From the NCBI RefSeq assembly GCF_011064545.1, contig NZ_JAAMFG010000036.1, forward strand, positions 186,001 through 250,000: DNA of 64,000 bases, in the 5' to 3' direction. The DNA comes from Wenzhouxiangella sp. XN24. GTDB lineage: Bacteria > Pseudomonadota > Gammaproteobacteria > Steroidobacterales > XN24. The notes under the pieces are model-generated. The model made no database searches, had not been told where the DNA came from, and worked only from the letters and a program-made list of their open reading frames with translations. Shown in pieces: positions 11,773 to 63,071 of this stretch. Each line of letters begins with the position of its first letter. Within the stretch, counting starts at the first letter, position 1. A program made the position numbers and the translations under genes.

Positions 11773-13453
11773 CCGCAGCCTCGTCGCGCAGCGCCCGGCG
11801 CAGGATCTTGCCGACGTTGGTCTTCGGCAACTCCGCGCGGAACTCGACATGCTTGGGCACCTTGTAGGCAGTAAGGCTTTCACGGCACCACGCTATCACG
11901 CCTGCGGCATCGAGGCTGGAGCCTTCCTGGCGCACGACGAAAATCTTCACCGCCTCGGTGGACTTGGGATCCGCCACGCCGATGCAGGCGGCTTCGATCA
12001 CCTCCGGATGCAGTGCGACGACATTCTCCACCTCGTTGGGGAACACGTTGAAACCGGATACCAGGATCATGTCCTTCTTCCGGTCCACGATGCGGAAGAA
12101 GCCTTGCGCATCCATCGTCGCGATGTCACCCGTTCGCAGGAAGCCGTCGGGATACATGACCTGCTCCGTGGCCTCGGGTCGCTGCCAGTAGCCTTTCATG
12201 ACCTGGGGGCCGCGCACGCAGAGCTCCCCCGGTTCCCCCGGAGCGACGTCCTGGCCGTCATCGTTGCGAATCGCGACCTCGGTGGACGGCAGCGGCAAGC
12301 CGATCGTGCCGCTGAACACCTCGTCGGAAGAAGTGGGCTGCATGGTGACGACCGGCGAAGTCTCGGTGAGGCCATAACCCTCCTGCACGGTCTTGCCCGT
12401 GATCTCGTGCCAGCGCTGGGCGGTCGCCGCCTGCAGCGCCATGCCGCCGGCGCCCGCCCACTTGAGGTGGGAGAAATCCAGGCTGCGGAAGCCGGGGTCA
12501 TGCACCAGGGCGTTGAACAAGGTGTTGACCCCGGTGATGATCGTGAACGGCAGCCGGGAAAGTTCCTTCACGAACGCGGGGATGTCGCGCGGATTGGTGA
12601 TCAGGACATTCACGCCGCCGACCGACATGAACAGCAGGCAGTTACAGACCAGGCTGAAGACGTGGTACAGCGGCAGCGCCGTGATGACGACTTCCCGGCC
12701 CTCGTCGACCAGGCCGCCGATCCAGGCATGCATCTGGCGCAGGTTGGCGACCATGTTCCGGTGCGTCAGCATCGCCCCCTTGGACACGCCGGTGGTGCCG
12801 CCGGTGTACTGCAGGAACGCCAGGTCTTCCTGGTTGACGACCACGGGCTCGAAGCCGTGCCTGCGGCCGCGTTCCAGCGCCTCGGACAGGCGCAGGTGGC
12901 CCGGGAGCCGGTAGGCCGGGACCATCTTCTTGACCCTGCGGATGACGAAATTGACCACCTGGCGCTTCGGTGCCGGCAACAGGTCGCCGACGGCCGTCAC
13001 CACCACGTGTTTTACCGGCGTCTCGCCAATGACTTTCTCGAGCGTCGCGGCGAAATTCTCGAGGATCAGGATGGCCTCGGCGCCGGAATCCTCGAGCTGG
13101 TGCTTGAGCTCCCGGGCGGTGTAGAGCGGATTGACGTTCACCACCGTCATTCCGGCGCGCAGGATGCCGAACAACGCCACGGGGTACTGCAGCAGGTTGG
13201 GCAACATGATCGCGACCCGCGTGCCGCGCGCCAGCCCGAGATCGCTGGTCAGCCAGGCTGCGAACTCGGCCGACATTCGTTCCAGCTCGCCGTAGTTCAG
13301 CGTTCGCCCCATGCAGGAAAACGCCGGCCGCGCGGCGAAGCGCGCCGCACTGGCTTCGAAGATACTGACCAGGGTGGCACCGTCGCCGAGGTCGATATCG
13401 GCCGGCGTGCCGGCGGGATAACTTGCAATCCATGGCCTTTCCACTTTCGTCAT
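11765..13453 (-). CDS. fadD: Long-chain fatty acid-CoA ligase
   Basis: This 562-residue AMP-forming acyl-CoA synthetase activates fatty acids to acyl-CoA for beta-oxidation or lipid synthesis. The P-loop-like YTGGTTGVSKGA is at residues 216-227, the adenylation region GYGLTETSPV further on, then YPDGFLRTGD and the C-terminal hinge/lysine region DRKKDMILVSGFNVFPNEVE. Length equals the FadD norm. The family-typical opening W..SYPAG supports the ATG at 13453. It is transcribed away from the bactofilin gene, and the DUF3108 gene follows with an 8-base overlap. Other fatty-acid genes (fadE, the ACAD11-like module) are elsewhere in the window. Confidence 0.92.
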   Translation of the reverse strand: MTKVERPWIASYPAGTPADIDLGDGATLVSIFEASAARFAARPAFSCMGRTLNYGELERMSAEFAAWLTSDLGLARGTRVAIMLPNLLQYPVALFGILRAGMTVVNVNPLYTARELKHQLEDSGAEAILILENFAATLEKVIGETPVKHVVVTAVGDLLPAPKRQVVNFVIRRVKKMVPAYRLPGHLRLSEALERGRRHGFEPVVVNQEDLAFLQYTGGTTGVSKGAMLTHRNMVANLRQMHAWIGGLVDEGREVVITALPLYHVFSLVCNCLLFMSVGGVNVLITNPRDIPAFVKELSRLPFTIITGVNTLFNALVHDPGFRSLDFSHLKWAGAGGMALQAATAQRWHEITGKTVQEGYGLTETSPVVTMQPTSSDEVFSGTIGLPLPSTEVAIRNDDGQDVAPGEPGELCVRGPQVMKGYWQRPEATEQVMYPDGFLRTGDIATMDAQGFFRIVDRKKDMILVSGFNVFPNEVENVVALHPEVIEAACIGVADPKSTEAVKIFVVRQEGSSLDAAGVIAWCRESLTAYKVPKHVEFRAELPKTNVGKILRRALRDEAAGG

Positions 13454-13611
13454 CTCCAGCGAGTCGAGGGAAAAGCATTAAATCAGCAGCGGAGTCCGGC
13501 AGCTATATGCGCCGCAACATGACGCGGCGGAAACATCGCATTCCATGACAGATAGGTTACCCTTGGTCCACGGCGCACCTGCGGGTCGCGCTTTTCGCGG
13601 AGAGTTGTTGC

Positions 13612-13998
13612 ATGCGCAAGCGAAGAATGCGGGATCGCGTCGGCCCACCCGCGACCATTCTCGGCCCCGGCGCCGAACTGAATGGGTCCTTGCAGGGCGA
13701 AGGCCACTTCCTCATCGCCGGACGCGTCATCGGCGATGCGGACATCGAGGGTGCGCTGACGCTGGCGGCGGGCGGGCACTGGCGTGGCGCGATCCGGGCC
13801 GACGACGTGATCCTGGCCGGTGAACTGGACGGCGAACTGCTCGCACGGGGCCGGGTCGAGATCACCGCCTCGGCGCATATCCGCGGGCGCGTGGTCGCCG
13901 GAGGCATCTCGATTTCCGCCGGGGCCGTGGTCGAAGCGGAACTGCAATCGACCGGCGAGGGCGAGATCGTCAGCTTCGACGAGCGGCGCGGCGACTGA
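13612..13998 (+). CDS. Bactofilin
   Basis: This 128-residue protein consists of a short basic N-terminus (MRKRRMRDR) and a bactofilin beta-helix domain (about residues 15-118) with the expected periodic GxxxxGxI pattern (GSLQGEGHFLIAGRVIGD, GRVEITASAHIRGRVVAG). Bactofilins polymerise without nucleotide into membrane-associated filaments and act in cell shape, stalk formation, motility or envelope positioning. It overlaps the following GGDEF-EAL gene by one base (TGATG), so the scaffold and the c-di-GMP enzyme are probably co-expressed. Confidence 0.85.
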   Translation: MRKRRMRDRVGPPATILGPGAELNGSLQGEGHFLIAGRVIGDADIEGALTLAAGGHWRGAIRADDVILAGELDGELLARGRVEITASAHIRGRVVAGGISISAGAVVEAELQSTGEGEIVSFDERRGD

Positions 13999-56717: not shown

Positions 56718-57982
56718 CCTTGAGCCCGGGTTTCACTTATCGCGACGGGCAGCTGTGCGCCGAGTCGGTGCCGCTCGAGACCCTCGCGGCCCGCTACGGA
56801 ACGCCCTGCTACGTGTACTCCCGCAACGTCCTGGAGGCGCGTTACGACGCCTACGCCGCGGCTTTTTCGGGCCGGCCCGTGCGTCTCTGCTACGCGGTAA
56901 AGGCCAACGGCAATCTCGCCGTGCTGGGCGCTCTCGCGGCGCGCGGAGCCGCCTTCGACATCGTCTCCGGCGGCGAACTCGCACGGGTCATCCGCGCCGG
57001 CGGCGACCCGCGGCGCGTCGTGTTCTCCGGGGCCTGCAAGCTCGACGAGGAACTGCGCTTCGCACTCGCCCAGGACATCGCCTGTTTCAACGTCGAGTCG
57101 GCGCCCGAGCTGCACCGGCTCTCGGCCCTCGCGAACGAAAGCGGCCGCGAGGCGCGCGTCGCCCTGCGCGTCAATCCGGACGTCGAGGCCGGCGGTCACA
57201 GGCACATCTCCACCGGGCGGCGGGAACACAAGTTCGGCGTCGCCATGGAGGACGCCGAGGCGTTGCTGGTCGCTGCGAAAGCACTACCCGGCATCCGCCT
57301 GGAGGGTGTCGCCTGCCACATCGGCTCGCAGATGATGTCGCTCGAGCCGCTGGCGCTGGCGCTCGAGCAGCTGGCCGCGTTCATCAGGCGGCTGCAGGCG
57401 AACGGCTTTCGCCTCGCCCACGTGGACGCCGGCGGCGGGCTGGGGATCGATCACGGCGGCCAGGCGGCGCCGACCCCGGCCGCCTACGCCGACGTCGTGC
57501 TCGCGGCCCTGGGCGGCCTCGGCCTGGAGATCGTGCTCGAGCCCGGGCGCTCGATCGCCGGCCCCGCCGGAGTGCTGCTCACGCGCGTCGCCTACCTGAA
57601 ACAGGGCCATGGGCGGAAATTCGCGCTGGTCGATGCCGCCATGAACGACCTGTTGCGGCCCGCCCTGTACGAGGGCTGGCACGACATCCTCCCGGTACGC
57701 GACGGCGGACTGCCCGATGACGAGCCGATCGACGTGGTCGGCCCGGTGTGCGAGACCGGCGATTTCCTCGGCCGTGACCGGCGCCTGCCGGTGCGCGCCG
57801 GCGACCTGCTGGCCGTAGCCGATGCCGGCGCCTACGGATTCGTCATGAGCTCGAATTACAATGCCCGCCCGAGAATCTGCGAGATCATGGTCGCAGGCGA
57901 CGAAGCGCGGGTCGTACGCCGGCGCGAAGAGGTCGAGGAATTGTGGCGGGGTGAGGCGCTGTTCGAGGATGCGAATCCATGA
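56714..57982 (+). CDS. lysA: Diaminopimelate decarboxylase
   Basis: This 422-residue PLP enzyme of fold type III makes lysine from meso-diaminopimelate. PLP Lys63 is in CYAVKAN, followed by the family DIVSGGEL, SGACKLDEEL, ALRVNPDVEA, HKFGV, CHIGSQ, EPGRSI and the late MNDLLRPALY and CETGDF (active-site Cys and Glu). The start is GTG 56714 overlapping the LptM stop, and the gene overlaps polA (ATGA). Confidence 0.92.
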   Translation: MTLSPGFTYRDGQLCAESVPLETLAARYGTPCYVYSRNVLEARYDAYAAAFSGRPVRLCYAVKANGNLAVLGALAARGAAFDIVSGGELARVIRAGGDPRRVVFSGACKLDEELRFALAQDIACFNVESAPELHRLSALANESGREARVALRVNPDVEAGGHRHISTGRREHKFGVAMEDAEALLVAAKALPGIRLEGVACHIGSQMMSLEPLALALEQLAAFIRRLQANGFRLAHVDAGGGLGIDHGGQAAPTPAAYADVVLAALGGLGLEIVLEPGRSIAGPAGVLLTRVAYLKQGHGRKFALVDAAMNDLLRPALYEGWHDILPVRDGGLPDDEPIDVVGPVCETGDFLGRDRRLPVRAGDLLAVADAGAYGFVMSSNYNARPRICEIMVAGDEARVVRRREEVEELWRGEALFEDANP

Positions 57983-60702
57983 GCGATGAATCGCTGGTGC
58001 TGGTGGACGGCTCGTCCTACCTGTACCGGGCCTTCCACGCGATGCCGCCCCTGACCAACAGCCGCGGTGCGCCGGTCGGCGCGGTGCTGGGCGTGGTGAA
58101 CATGCTGCTGAAGCTTCTCGACGAGCACCAGCCGGCGCATTTCGCCGTGGTCTTCGACGCCAGGGGCAAGACCTTTCGCGACGAGCTGTTCGCCGAGTAC
58201 AAGGCGACGCGCCCGCCCATGCCCGACGAACTCGGGGCGCAGATCGCGCCGTTGCTCGAGGTCGTCGAGGCGCTCGGCCTGCCGATGCTGCAGGTGCCGG
58301 GTGTCGAGGCGGACGACGTGATCGGCACGCTCGCACGCCAGGCAACGGCCGCCGGGATGAAGACGCTGGTCTCGACGGGCGACAAGGACATGGCACAACT
58401 GGTGAACGAGCGGGTGACCCTGGTCAACACGATGACCGGCACCGTGCTCGACCCGGCCGGCGTGGAACAGAAGTTCGGCGTCCCGCCGGCACGCATCGTG
58501 GACTGGCTGGCGCTGGTCGGCGACAGTTCCGACAACATCCCCGGCGTGCCGAAATGCGGCCCCAAGACCGCCACCAAGTGGCTCGGGGAGTTCGGCGATG
58601 TGGACAGCCTCGTGGCGCGGGCCGACGAGGTGCCGGGCAAGGTGGGGGAAAGCCTGCGCGCCCACCTCGAGCAGCTCGAGCTGTCGCGCGAACTCGCAAC
58701 GATCCGCTGCGACGTCGACCTGGAACTCGGCCCGGCGGAACTCGTGCGCCGCTCGCCCGATACCGAGCGGTTGCGCACGCTGTACAAGGAGCTGGAATTC
58801 AATACCCTGCTGCGCAAGCTGCCGGGATCGAACGCGGGAAGCAGCGATAATGGCGATCCGGTGGACGAGACCACGAGCGTCCCGGCGCCCGCCGCCGCGC
58901 TCGACTACGAGACCGTGCTGACGCGCGCGCAACTCGACGGCTGGCTGGCCCGGCTCGAGGCCGCTGACACGTTCGCCTTCGATACCGAGACGGACAGCCT
59001 CGACTACATGCGGGCGCAGATCGTCGGCGTGTCGTTTGCCGTGACCCCCGGCCAGGCCGCCTATGTGCCGCTGGCCCATCACGATCCTGATATCGCTGCA
59101 CAACTCGATCGGGCCGAGACCCTCGAGGCCCTGCGGCCGCTGCTCGAAGACCCGGCCCGCGGCAAGATCGGACACAACCTGAAATACGACCAGCACGTGC
59201 TGGCGAATCACGGCATCGCGCTGGCCGGGATTCGCTACGACACCATGCTCGAGTCCTATGTCGTCGACTCCACTGCGACGCGCCACGACATGGATTCGGT
59301 GGCGCTGAAGTACCTGGGTCACCAGACCATCCGCTACGAGGACGTGGCCGGCAAGGGCGCGCGGCAGATCTGCTTCGACCAGGTGCCCGTGGCCGTCGCG
59401 GCGCCTTATGCGGCGGAGGATGCCGACGTGACCCTGCGGCTGCACGAGACGCTGTGGCCGCGCCTCAGCGAGAACCCCGGACTGGAGCGCGTCTACAGCG
59501 AGATCGAGCGCCCCCTGGTGCCGATCCTGGTGGGGATGGAACGCCACGGGGTGTTGCTGGACACGGACCTCCTCAGGCAACAGAGCCGGGAGCTGGACAA
59601 AGGCATGGCCGAGGCGGCCGCCCTCGCGTTCGCCGCCGCCGGGGGCGCGTTCAACATCGGCTCGGCCAAGCAGCTGCAGGAGATCCTCTTCGGCCGGCTC
59701 GGCCTCACCTCGGTACGCAACACCCCCGGGGGCCAGCCGTCCACCGCGGAGGACGTACTCGAGGAGCTGGCGCTGCTCCACGAGCTGCCGCGCCGCGTGC
59801 TCGAGTACCGGGGCCTGGCGAAGCTGAAATCCACCTATACGGACAAGCTTCCCGAACTCGCGGACGCCCGAAACCGGGTGCACACCTCGTATCACCAGGC
59901 CGTCGCCGCGACCGGCCGGCTGTCCTCCTCCGACCCGAACCTGCAGAACATCCCGATCCGCACCGCCGAGGGCCGCCGCATCCGGCAGGCATTCATCGCC
60001 CCGCCGGGATATCGCCTCGTGGCGGCGGATTACTCCCAGATCGAGCTGCGGATCATGGCGCACCTGTCCGGCGACGAGGGGCTGCTGGCCGCCTTCCGCG
60101 AGGATCGCGACATCCACCAGGCCACGGCCGCCGAGGTCTTCGAAACGCCGCTCGAGCAGGTGACCGCCGAGCAGCGCCGCTCCGCCAAGGCGATCAATTT
60201 CGGCCTCATCTACGGCATGTCGGCCTTCGGTCTCGCGCGCCAGCTGGGCATCGAGCGCGGCGCGGCGCAGGACTACGTGCAGCTTTACTTCGAGCGTTAC
60301 CCCGGCGTGAAGCGCTACATGGACGAAACCCGCCAGCAGGCCCGCGACGACGGCTACGTCACCACGGTGCTGGGGCGGCGGCTCTACCTGCCGGAAATCC
60401 GCTCGCGCAACGGGCAGCGCCGCCAGTACGCGGAGCGCAGCGCCATCAATGCCCCGATGCAGGGCACGGCCGCCGACATCATCAAGCTGGCCATGATCCG
60501 CGTCGCCGACTGGCTGGCGAAGGACCCGGTGGACGCCCGGCTGATCATGCAGGTGCACGACGAGCTGGTCTTCGAGGTCGCCGACGACGACGTCGATGCG
60601 CTCATCGCTGCGCTGGGTCCGCTGATGGGCGAAGCGGTGACCCTGTCGGTGCCCCTCAAGATCGAACCGGCCGCCGGCCTGAACTGGGACGAAGCCCACT
60701 AG
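57979..60702 (+). CDS. polA: DNA polymerase I
   Basis: This 907-residue enzyme has an N-terminal 5'-3' exonuclease (DGSSYLYRAFHAMP, YKATRPPMPD), a proofreading domain with intact DxE (FDTETDSLDYM near 334) and a polymerase domain with motif A DYSQIELR (near 684), motif B region RRSAKAINFGLIYG and motif C HDELVFE (near 860). Full length is close to E. coli PolI (928). It overlaps lysA and ends with a strong terminator about 180 bases later; between them lies a predicted small RNA. Confidence 0.95.
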   Translation: MSDESLVLVDGSSYLYRAFHAMPPLTNSRGAPVGAVLGVVNMLLKLLDEHQPAHFAVVFDARGKTFRDELFAEYKATRPPMPDELGAQIAPLLEVVEALGLPMLQVPGVEADDVIGTLARQATAAGMKTLVSTGDKDMAQLVNERVTLVNTMTGTVLDPAGVEQKFGVPPARIVDWLALVGDSSDNIPGVPKCGPKTATKWLGEFGDVDSLVARADEVPGKVGESLRAHLEQLELSRELATIRCDVDLELGPAELVRRSPDTERLRTLYKELEFNTLLRKLPGSNAGSSDNGDPVDETTSVPAPAAALDYETVLTRAQLDGWLARLEAADTFAFDTETDSLDYMRAQIVGVSFAVTPGQAAYVPLAHHDPDIAAQLDRAETLEALRPLLEDPARGKIGHNLKYDQHVLANHGIALAGIRYDTMLESYVVDSTATRHDMDSVALKYLGHQTIRYEDVAGKGARQICFDQVPVAVAAPYAAEDADVTLRLHETLWPRLSENPGLERVYSEIERPLVPILVGMERHGVLLDTDLLRQQSRELDKGMAEAAALAFAAAGGAFNIGSAKQLQEILFGRLGLTSVRNTPGGQPSTAEDVLEELALLHELPRRVLEYRGLAKLKSTYTDKLPELADARNRVHTSYHQAVAATGRLSSSDPNLQNIPIRTAEGRRIRQAFIAPPGYRLVAADYSQIELRIMAHLSGDEGLLAAFREDRDIHQATAAEVFETPLEQVTAEQRRSAKAINFGLIYGMSAFGLARQLGIERGAAQDYVQLYFERYPGVKRYMDETRQQARDDGYVTTVLGRRLYLPEIRSRNGQRRQYAERSAINAPMQGTAADIIKLAMIRVADWLAKDPVDARLIMQVHDELVFEVADDDVDALIAALGPLMGEAVTLSVPLKIEPAAGLNWDEAH

Positions 60703-60765
60703 CACGGGTCGCGGATCATGCCGCACGGGCGACGGATCACGCCCCGGGCCAATCCTGCGCGTCGC

Positions 60766-60793
60766 GGAACTTTTGCCGCAGTGCAGTGTCTCT
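60766..60793 (+). promoter_or_regulatory. Sigma-E/AlgU-like promoter in the polA-engB gap
   Basis: GGAACTT (60766-60772) matches the -35 of sigma-E/AlgU promoters exactly. After a 16-base spacer, TCTCT (60789-60793, within GTCTCT) resembles the -10 (GTCTGA-type). Transcription would begin near 60799-60801. The promoter lies downstream of polA and points to the predicted small RNA. Confidence 0.55.
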
Positions 60794-60799
60794 ATTCCT

Positions 60800-60913
60800 G
60801 AGCGCCAACGCGACGCTCGCCCGCTGTCCTCCCTGAGCGGGCAAGCTGCCCGGTTTCCCCCAAGCCGGGCCATGCTTTACCCCGGGGCACTTCGTTGCCC
60901 CGGGGTTTTTTTT
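60800..60913 (+). ncRNA. Candidate small RNA at the polA-engB locus
   Basis: A roughly 114-base transcript is predicted between the sigma-E-like promoter and the terminator. Four hairpins can be drawn: GAGCG/CGCTC (60800-60804 and 60814-60818); GCCCGCT/AGCGGGC (60819-60825 and 60836-60842) with loop GTCCTCCCTG; a 9-bp stem (60848-60856 with 60862-60870, including one G-U) closed by the loop CCCCC; and the terminator hairpin. CCTCC and CCCCC loops could pair with Shine-Dalgarno sequences. This gap carries Spot 42 in E. coli and the sigma-22-dependent ErsA in Pseudomonas; sequence homology to either is not evident. Confidence 0.5.
60880..60913 (+). terminator. Rho-independent terminator of polA/small RNA
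   Basis: CCCCGGGGCA (60880-60889), loop CTTCGT, TGCCCCGGGG (60896-60905) forms a perfect 10-bp stem, immediately followed by eight T (60906-60913). The T-run lies against the stop of the convergent engB gene. Confidence 0.92.
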
Positions 60914-61508
60914 ATTCCTTTGGCATGATCCCGAGCAGCGCATCGAGCCGCGCCCGCGCCGTTTCCACCCCGGTGCCCTTGAGCGCCGAGAACAGCTGCA
61001 CCGTCGCGGTGTCGCCGACCTGTTTGCGCACCGAAAGCAGCGCGGCGCTGGCGGCGCCCCGGGACAGCTTGTCGGCCTTGGTCAGCAGGATGTGGACGGG
61101 ACACCCCGCCTCGGCCGCCCAGCCGAGCATCCCCTGGTCGAAGTCGGTCAGCGGACGGCGCACGTCCATGACGATGAACAGGCCCGCGAGCGACTGGCGA
61201 TGGCGGAAATAGGCGTCCATGAGCTTGCCCCAGTGGCGCCGCACCGCCTCCGGTACGCGGGCGTAGCCGTAGCCGGGCAAGTCCGTGACGCGCAGCTGTT
61301 CGCCCACGGAGAAGAAATTCACCAGCTGGGTGCGGCCGGGCGTCTTGCTGGTGCGCGCGAGGCCGCGCCGCGCCAGGATCGCGTTGATCGCGCTGGACTT
61401 GCCCGAGTTCGAGCGGCCCGCGAACGCGACCTCGGCGCCGTCGTCAGGGACGAACTGCGCGACCGTGTTGGCGCTGGTGAGGAATTCGACGTCGGAATAG
61501 GCGGTCAT
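60912..61508 (-). CDS. engB: Ribosome biogenesis GTPase EngB (YihA/YsxC)
   Basis: This 198-residue GTPase has G1 GRSNSGKSS (31-39), the switch-I threonine in [16 protein letters not shown]3 DLPGYGYA, G4 TKAD and a G5 SALKGTG. It helps assemble the 50S subunit. It converges with polA, the terminator lying against its stop. Synteny polA-engB-cytochrome c4-dsbA is common in gammaproteobacteria. Confidence 0.93.
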
Positions 61509-61611
61509 GACGAATGGACTGCACCTTGTGGGTCTGGTGTATCATTTCGGGTTCTACCCGCCGGGCGCCGGACTGGCAAGCCGCCGGGGCCAACACTGGA
61601 GAAAACAAGCC

Positions 61612-62211
61612 ATGAGGAAGCTTCTCGCCGTTGCCATGATGGCCGCGGCCCTGGGGATCGGCAGCGCAGCGCAGGCCGAAGGTTCGGTTGCCGACGGGCA
61701 GGCCAAGTCCGTCGTGTGCGCCGCCTGTCACGGCGCCGATGGTAACAGCGTCAACCCCGAATGGCCTTCACTGGCCGGGCAGCATGCGAGCTACACGGCA
61801 GACCAACTGGCCGCCTTCAAGAACGGCCAGCGCCAGAACGCGCTGATGTCGCCCATGGCCGCGGACCTTTCGGACCAGGACATGCAGGACCTGGCCGCCT
61901 TCTACGAGGCGCAGAAACCCGCCGCCCGCGAGGCGGACCCGGAGCTCGTCGAAGCGGGCGAGCACATCTATCTCGGTGGCGTCGCGGAGCGCGGCGTGCC
62001 CGCCTGCATCGCCTGCCACGGCCCCACCGGCCTGGGCAACCCGCTCGCCCGGTATCCCGTGGTGGCCGCCCAGCACGCCACCTATTCGGCACTTTCGCTG
62101 CGCGCCTATGCCTCCGGTGAACGGCCCAACCAGATCATGCAGGACATCGCCGGCCGCATGACCGAGGAAGATATCGTCGCCGTGAGTTCGTACCTGCAGG
62201 GACTCCGCTAG
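61612..62211 (+). CDS. Diheme cytochrome c4
   Basis: This 199-residue periplasmic protein has a signal peptide (LLAVAMMAAALGIGSAAQA) and two heme-c sites: CAACH (36-40) and CIACH (near 133-137), with ..NP.wPsLAGQH and NPLARYPVVAAQHATY after them and Met-containing axial-ligand regions (LMSPMA, IMQDIA). Cytochrome c4 carries electrons to terminal oxidases. GGAG precedes the ATG at 61612. Divergent from engB, upstream of the DsbA-like gene. Confidence 0.92.
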   Translation: MRKLLAVAMMAAALGIGSAAQAEGSVADGQAKSVVCAACHGADGNSVNPEWPSLAGQHASYTADQLAAFKNGQRQNALMSPMAADLSDQDMQDLAAFYEAQKPAAREADPELVEAGEHIYLGGVAERGVPACIACHGPTGLGNPLARYPVVAAQHATYSALSLRAYASGERPNQIMQDIAGRMTEEDIVAVSSYLQGLR

Positions 62212-62273
62212 CCCGGGGAACTCCACGGCGCCGGCATTGCCTGAACTGACTCAGATACTCCCGAGGAATCCGC

Positions 62274-63071
62274 ATGAAGATGACCCGCACCGCCCTCGCC
62301 GTACTTGCCGTGATCGCGTTCGGCGCCTGCAGCGCCGAGCCTCCGGCCGGATCGGCCGACGCGACGCCACCTGCCGCGCAGCCGGCGACGGAATCCCAGC
62401 CCGTGTCGCGGCCGGCCACCGCGGAGGCGCCCGCCGCGGCAACCACCGCCCCGGCCGAGCAGCCGGTGCGCGTCGCCCAGGCCGATACCGCCGAGAAAGC
62501 GACGAACAGCCGCTTCGTCGCCGGACAGCACTACCAGGTCCTCAACCCGGCCCAGCCCACCAATGTCACGCCGGGCAAGGTCGAAGTCGTCGACGTCTTC
62601 TGGTACGGCTGCGGCGGCTGCTTCGCGCTCGCGCCCTATCTCGAAGCGTGGAAGGCCAACAAACCGGAGGCGGCCGAATACGTGCAGGTGCCCGCGACGC
62701 TGAACACGAGCTGGCAGCCGCATGCCCGCCTGTATTTCGCCACCCGCGCCCTCGGGATCGCGGATCGCACCCACAGCGCCATCTTTCGCGAGTACCACGT
62801 CAACCGGAACCCGCTCAACACCATGGACGCGATGCTCGAGTTCCTCGGCGAATACGGCGTCTCGGCCGAAGACGCCCGGGCGGCGCTGACCAGCTTCGGC
62901 GTGGATGCCGAACTGCGTGCGGCCGATATCCGCGCGCGCCGCTACGGGCTCATGTTCGTGCCGGCGGTGGTGGTCAACGGCAAGTACCTCGTCGGGATCG
63001 AGCAGGCCGGCAGCCCGGAAGCCGCGATCGAGGTCATCAATCACCTGGTGGCGATGGAAGCCGGCACCTGA
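62274..63071 (+). CDS. dsbA: DsbA-like thiol:disulfide oxidoreductase, CGGC active site, lipoprotein-like
   Basis: This 265-residue protein starts with an export signal whose end (AFGACS) may be a lipobox, then a roughly 60-residue Ala/Pro/Thr linker, and a DsbA-type thioredoxin domain. The active site is CGGC (Cys113, Cys116) within FWYGCGGCFALAP, instead of CPHC or the common CGHC, so the dipeptide histidine is missing. A helical insertion, and a cis-Pro loop FVPAVV (Pro near 230), are present. Its place after cytochrome c4 is the conserved dsbA position. The redox potential is likely altered; function as oxidase is inferred. Confidence 0.82.
   Translation: MKMTRTALAVLAVIAFGACSAEPPAGSADATPPAAQPATESQPVSRPATAEAPAAATTAPAEQPVRVAQADTAEKATNSRFVAGQHYQVLNPAQPTNVTPGKVEVVDVFWYGCGGCFALAPYLEAWKANKPEAAEYVQVPATLNTSWQPHARLYFATRALGIADRTHSAIFREYHVNRNPLNTMDAMLEFLGEYGVSAEDARAALTSFGVDAELRAADIRARRYGLMFVPAVVVNGKYLVGIEQAGSPEAAIEVINHLVAMEAGT

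Follow-up and report, generated by a model that had tools for sequence, protein, structure and literature searches.

Does the gap between polA and engB of Wenzhouxiangella sp. XN24, the position of ErsA and Spot 42 in other bacteria, hold a small RNA (sRNA) gene of its own, how would such a gene be controlled, and is it new? These questions were addressed in a stretch of 64,000 nucleotides of this genome (hereafter, the window, meaning the whole stretch that was analysed). In the reading that we favour, with a probability of roughly 0.8, the gap contains a free-standing sRNA gene that would be transcribed by RpoE polymerase, ended by its own terminator and induced by envelope stress, and its loops would pair with G-rich ribosome binding sites (RBS).

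Organization of the locus

The upstream neighbour, polA (57979-60702, + strand), and the convergent downstream neighbour, engB (also ysxC or yihA; 60912-61508, - strand), are open reading frames and conserved neighbours. The sRNA gene between them (60799-60913, + strand) is supported by matches to models R1, R2 and RF02837 (see below) and by its fold. It begins 97 nt past the stop codon of polA and has the same direction. The predicted start lies at about 60799-60801 and the end at 60913, which gives a transcript of 114-115 nt, the length of about 114 bases given in the original prediction. The terminator announced there is also found (60879-60913, + strand): an 11-bp stem (60879-60906) is followed by a T-run up to 60913. 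Upstream, on the same strand, a -35 element of the sigma-E type, GGAACTT (60766-60772), is followed after 15 nt by the -10 element GTCTCT (60788-60793). The site had been described as GGAACTT, a 16-nt spacer and TCTCT (60789-60793); all these parts are present and, written in the sigma-E form, the same site is GGAACTT-N15-GTCTCT.

The U-tract of the sRNA is touched by the engB stop codon (60907-60914), so that a read-through transcript of engB would be antisense to the sRNA. Genes for a cytochrome c and a DsbA-like thiol-disulfide protein follow engB (61612-63071). Between polA and the sRNA, no terminator separate from that of the sRNA was found; the hairpins of the sRNA are therefore also part of the polA 3' region. 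This arrangement, with the sRNA at a short distance from polA and in the same direction, would also suit a processed polA 3' untranslated region (UTR), i.e. a cleavage product without a promoter of its own, a reading that is weighed below against the promoter and neighbourhood data.

Fold and covariation

The 115-nt RNA was folded into three hairpins and a terminator with an energy of -64.5 kcal/mol, versus -43.1 +/- 3.5 kcal/mol for shuffled sequences (z -6.2); none of the 200 shuffles had so low an energy. Covariation was scored on sequences of 30 relatives aligned by MAFFT, an alignment that was not fitted to the structure. Changes on both sides were present in 18 base pairs (73 such cells), a result given by none of 500 shuffles. 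The covariation score was 0.287, versus 0.156 +/- 0.010 for the shuffles and 0.07-0.12 for controls in which the strands were slid; all the covariation measures dropped when the strands were slid by 1-3 columns. Covariation among relatives had been proposed as a check of the original prediction, and it proved strong in this 30-sequence alignment, above both kinds of control.

All the structural elements are on the + strand. Hairpin 1 (60800-60818, stem GAGCG/CGCTC), missing from the original description, covaries in 3 of its 5 pairs. Hairpin 2 (60819-60842) covaries in 7 of 7 pairs, with 96% of its cells paired in the 30-relative alignment, and hairpin 3 (60848-60870) covaries in 4 of 6. In the terminator, 4 of the 9 counted pairs had changes on both sides. 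The anti-Shine-Dalgarno loops that had been predicted were located in two of these elements: UCCUCCCU in the loop of hairpin 2 (60827-60834) and CCCCC in that of hairpin 3 (60857-60861). The loop motif CUCCCU is invariant in the order-level sequences (30/30). Across class copies, CUCCC is kept in 129 of 143 and the C-run of hairpin 3 in 130 of 143. Since the stem of hairpin 2 covaries in every pair around a constant loop, this element is best understood as belonging to a structured RNA in which the loop is under selection.

Distribution and gene neighbourhood

Model R1 was built from the 30 relatives and model R2 from 86 matches in the class (Gammaproteobacteria, by named records). The window RNA is matched over its full length by both, at 112.8 bits (R1) and at 103.3 bits (R2), the latter score being partly by construction since the window copy is among the R2 training sequences. 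With R1, the RNA was detected in 131 of the 274 genomes by which the class was sampled. With R2, it was detected in 156 of the 196 order-level genomes (123/146 for those of good quality), and matches outside the class were few and weak. A second R1 match in the same genome (28 bits, contig C34) was gone with the broader R2 and was taken as chance. The comparison of sequences thus confirms the predicted sRNA gene as real and widely conserved.

In the relatives, the locus sits between polA and engB wherever both genes were found. Among 134 class loci examined, 107 adjoin polA and/or engB: 102 have a co-directional polA upstream and/or a convergent engB downstream, and 5 have the opposite sense. 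Several of the remaining 27, read by eye, are near cytochrome c and ResB/DsbA-like genes, the kind that follows engB in the window. The window RNA shows the full-length match, the CUCCC loop, the neighbours and the promoter of the R2-defined family of C-rich-loop sRNAs of the polA-engB gap.

In several genomes the sRNA is present in tandem copies, up to five, most of them with a sigma-E-type promoter of their own. In locus L062/L037 (G227:C33, about 13149-13901), four copies lie between polA and engB, and every one of them has GGTCTGACC and a GGAAC-type element of its own; locus L167 (G319:C3, about 217562-218300) has five, with a GAACT/GAAACTT-type element upstream of each. Separately, Rfam matches to the unrelated RNA sX9 (RF02228) were noticed in some class members, with as many as eight per genome (G170, G085 and G316; loci L076, L080 and L078).

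Promoter and sigma-E system

Both models exclude the promoter, so the upstream sequence is an independent test. The last 62 nt upstream of 127 non-redundant class loci were analysed. GAACTT was present in 75 of these 127 regions, versus 1 in one and 2 in another control window farther upstream and 1.9 in shuffles. GAACTT-N14-16-GTC was present in 49 of the 127 loci, versus 0 in the controls, and among the 68 scored loci, 50 have GTC at a distance of 21 nt from the G of GAAC. The family promoter consensus, TGAACTTTT...GTCTTA, agrees with the generally known sigma-E promoter; the -10 element of the window, GTCTCT, falls short of this consensus. By itself the promoter string is not rare (GGAACTTN15-17TCTC has 4 matches genome-wide versus 2 for the reversed pattern), so that the case for the promoter rests on its conservation at a fixed distance in relatives.

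The same genome encodes RpoE (306 bits, versus a cut-off of 236), and rpoE is followed by RseA-like and RseB-like frames, the rpoE-rseA-rseB set being intact. The gene is preceded by GAACTT-N15-GTCA, with the spacing of the sRNA promoter. The claim of an sRNA gene with a sigma-E-type promoter at the ErsA/Spot 42 position is therefore borne out by covariation, by wide conservation and by conservation of the promoter.

These upstream data bear on two other explanations. The RNA could be a C-rich sRNA of the sX13 type, constitutive or responsive to another factor, with GGAACTT not its main promoter. About 40% of the class loci are without an exact GAACTT, and loci of the sX13 type, which belong to the same family, are without a clear GAACTT/sigma-E box. 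Moreover, ncS04 of Burkholderia cenocepacia (the anti-hemB RNA discussed below) showed no significant change of expression in a qPCR table under the tested conditions (PMC5688073), and the stress signal may thus differ between lineages. However, the window does have such a box, exact GGAACTT being present there and in many close relatives, its spacing is identical to that of the rpoE promoter of the genome, and no sigma-70-like promoter was found in 60300-61700 (1.4 kb around the sRNA). We consider this explanation unlikely.

The processed polA 3' UTR introduced above is less probable still, and we give it very little weight. The proximity to polA and the lack of an intervening terminator are countered by a sigma-E-type promoter conserved at fixed spacing and by tandem copies that carry their own promoters. 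In addition, loci passing the anti-hemB gathering score have an outward-facing hemB upstream, and hence no polA transcript to process.

Proposed action and candidate targets

Under the favoured reading of a free-standing, RpoE-dependent sRNA gene, envelope stress would free RpoE from RseA. The sigma-E (RpoE) polymerase would then transcribe the sRNA, transcription would be stopped by the sRNA's own terminator, and the RNA would accumulate. The loops UCCUCCCU and CCCCC would pair with the G-rich RBS (AGGGAGG, GGGGG) of chosen mRNAs, and this pairing would block the entry of the ribosome. We infer pairing and RpoE control from the anti-Shine-Dalgarno character of UCCUCCCU, from the precedent of sX13, which represses translation via C-rich loops and G-rich mRNA motifs and for which Hfq is dispensable (PMC3771888), and from the dependence of ErsA on sigma-22 (AlgU) (PMC5819304). 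Hfq is encoded in the genome and might have a role.

A scan for potential targets, in which genes were called with a home-made gene finder, covered about 1.63 Mb, about half of the genome. The loop of hairpin 2, UCCUCCCU, is complementary to RBS of the form AGGGAGGA. In the scanned half, AGGGAG was found at the RBS of 2.0 per 100 genes, versus 0.02 in coding sequence. This enrichment is expected of any anti-Shine-Dalgarno sequence; it is therefore generic and does not identify targets. The best perfect match is at the start region of a candidate target, katG (catalase-peroxidase with an apparent signal peptide; G000:C36:72599-74815). This region, GCAGGGAGGAGGACTCATG, contains AGGGAGGA and has a perfect 8-nt complement of loop 2. 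Its AGGGAG is kept in only about 4 of the approximately 28 relatives inspected and is not clearly conserved. At the start of hfq, a target of sX13, there is no G-run in this genome.

A sponge, i.e. an RNA that titrates an RNA-binding regulator protein and does not pair with mRNA, would also be consistent with C-rich loops that are repeated and in some cases borne by tandem genes. Such a role appears improbable to us, at about the level of the polA 3' UTR reading: CUCCCU is an exact complement of RBS, and the related sX13 exerts its effect on G-rich motifs through base pairing (PMC3771888). Pairing with RBS remains the preferred mode of action.

Relation to known small RNAs

The whole window was compared with Rfam 15 using cmscan. 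The sole match above a gathering score was anti-hemB (RF02837), at 53.8 bits versus a gathering score of 49.5, over 60817-60913, and the anti-hemB model matches 41 of 59 relatives. The original prediction had described the RNA as lacking sequence homology to either known RNA (ErsA or Spot 42). As a sign of newness this does not hold, given the anti-hemB match and given that the family reaches the sX13 loci of Xanthomonas and has a weaker full-length match to ErsA. Anti-hemB, or ncS04, is a 105-nt transcript of B. cenocepacia that was probed on Northern blots and whose function is not known (PMC5688073). The window RNA resembles it in the order of its hairpins, in the CCUCCCUGAGCGGG loop and stem and in the convergent engB downstream. 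It differs by its 5' hairpin, absent from the anti-hemB Rfam model, and by its upstream neighbour, which is polA in the window and hemB at the anti-hemB loci inspected. Six loci found with R2 pass the anti-hemB gathering score (L189, L191, L192, L194, L198 and L201). In all six, hemB takes the place of polA and faces away upstream, and engB is convergent downstream. There, the start of the sRNA is next to the hemB 5' end; contrary to what its name suggests, the RNA is not antisense to the hemB body. In the genome of the window, hemB is not beside the sRNA; it is located on another contig (C37).

The likeness to sX13 (RF02232) of the Xanthomonadaceae lies in the position directly after polA, the C-rich stem-loops and a similar length. 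Three C-rich hairpin loops are typical of sX13; in the window RNA, the loops of hairpins 2 and 3 are C-rich and those of hairpin 1 and the terminator are not. With the sX13 model, nothing in the window matched, even at E values up to 10. Elsewhere, model scores connect the two RNAs. Against its gathering score of 50, the sX13 model gives 116.7 bits for L197 and 103.2 bits for L200, two loci found with R2 directly after polA. Intermediate loci are L190, with 49.5 bits for this model and 56.6 bits for R2, and L188, with 40.1 and 61.3 bits. The sX13 model also finds several class relatives just under its gathering score. Among the four tandem copies in L062, one scores 48.3 bits with it, and single copies match the Rfam models of anti-hemB, sX13, ErsA and alpha-r14.

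Of these three RNAs (anti-hemB, sX13 and ErsA), ErsA has the weakest link to the window family. Under relaxed thresholds the model of this Pseudomonas RNA (RF01719) scores 12.8 bits on the window, versus a gathering score of 50. It matches 10 of the 274 class genomes, all 10 matches being beside polA and/or engB, and R2 matches the ErsA locus over its full length (27.3 bits, E 4.7e-5). The window shares with ErsA the polA-engB gap and a promoter of the RpoE/AlgU type. A C-rich terminator loop is seen in many class relatives, as in ErsA; the terminator loop of the window RNA has no C-rich motif. For one of its targets, ErsA uses a U-rich single-stranded domain (PMC8575079).

All that Spot 42 (spf) has in common with the window sRNA is its location and direction in the polA-engB (yihA) gap. 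Spot 42 has no CUCCCU loop, and its regulation differs (CRP). Under relaxed thresholds, Spot 42 had no Rfam match in the window. Homology was considered unsupported, R2 scoring 15.7 bits on E. coli spf, mostly on the terminator. As for alpha-r14 (RF02344), its model gave weak, sub-gathering matches to family members, and R2 weakly matches its loci; given the weakness of these alphaproteobacterial matches, homology is not claimed.

Anti-hemB, sX13 and ErsA carry no clan in the Rfam tables consulted, and a family joining them is ungrouped there. No paper naming both sX13 and ErsA was found in the open-access literature. On balance we think it probable, with somewhat less confidence than for the main reading, that they descend from one ancestral sigma-E-driven sRNA beside engB, spread over much of the Gammaproteobacteria, including betaproteobacterial lineages, and named piecemeal as ErsA, sX13 and anti-hemB. 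If this is one family, the envelope stress response would have a conserved site in the polA-engB gap, where the anti-Shine-Dalgarno loop would be the part that does not vary, and the name anti-hemB would be misleading. The question of the sX13 authors about sRNAs at the polA locus of other bacteria would then be largely answered. The target rules worked out in Pseudomonas and Xanthomonas would become testable class-wide, and one conserved sRNA branch of the sigma-E response could be tested in many organisms. The window RNA is a clean, unstudied member of this family, which seems to join ErsA, sX13 and anti-hemB, three RNAs that have been studied apart.
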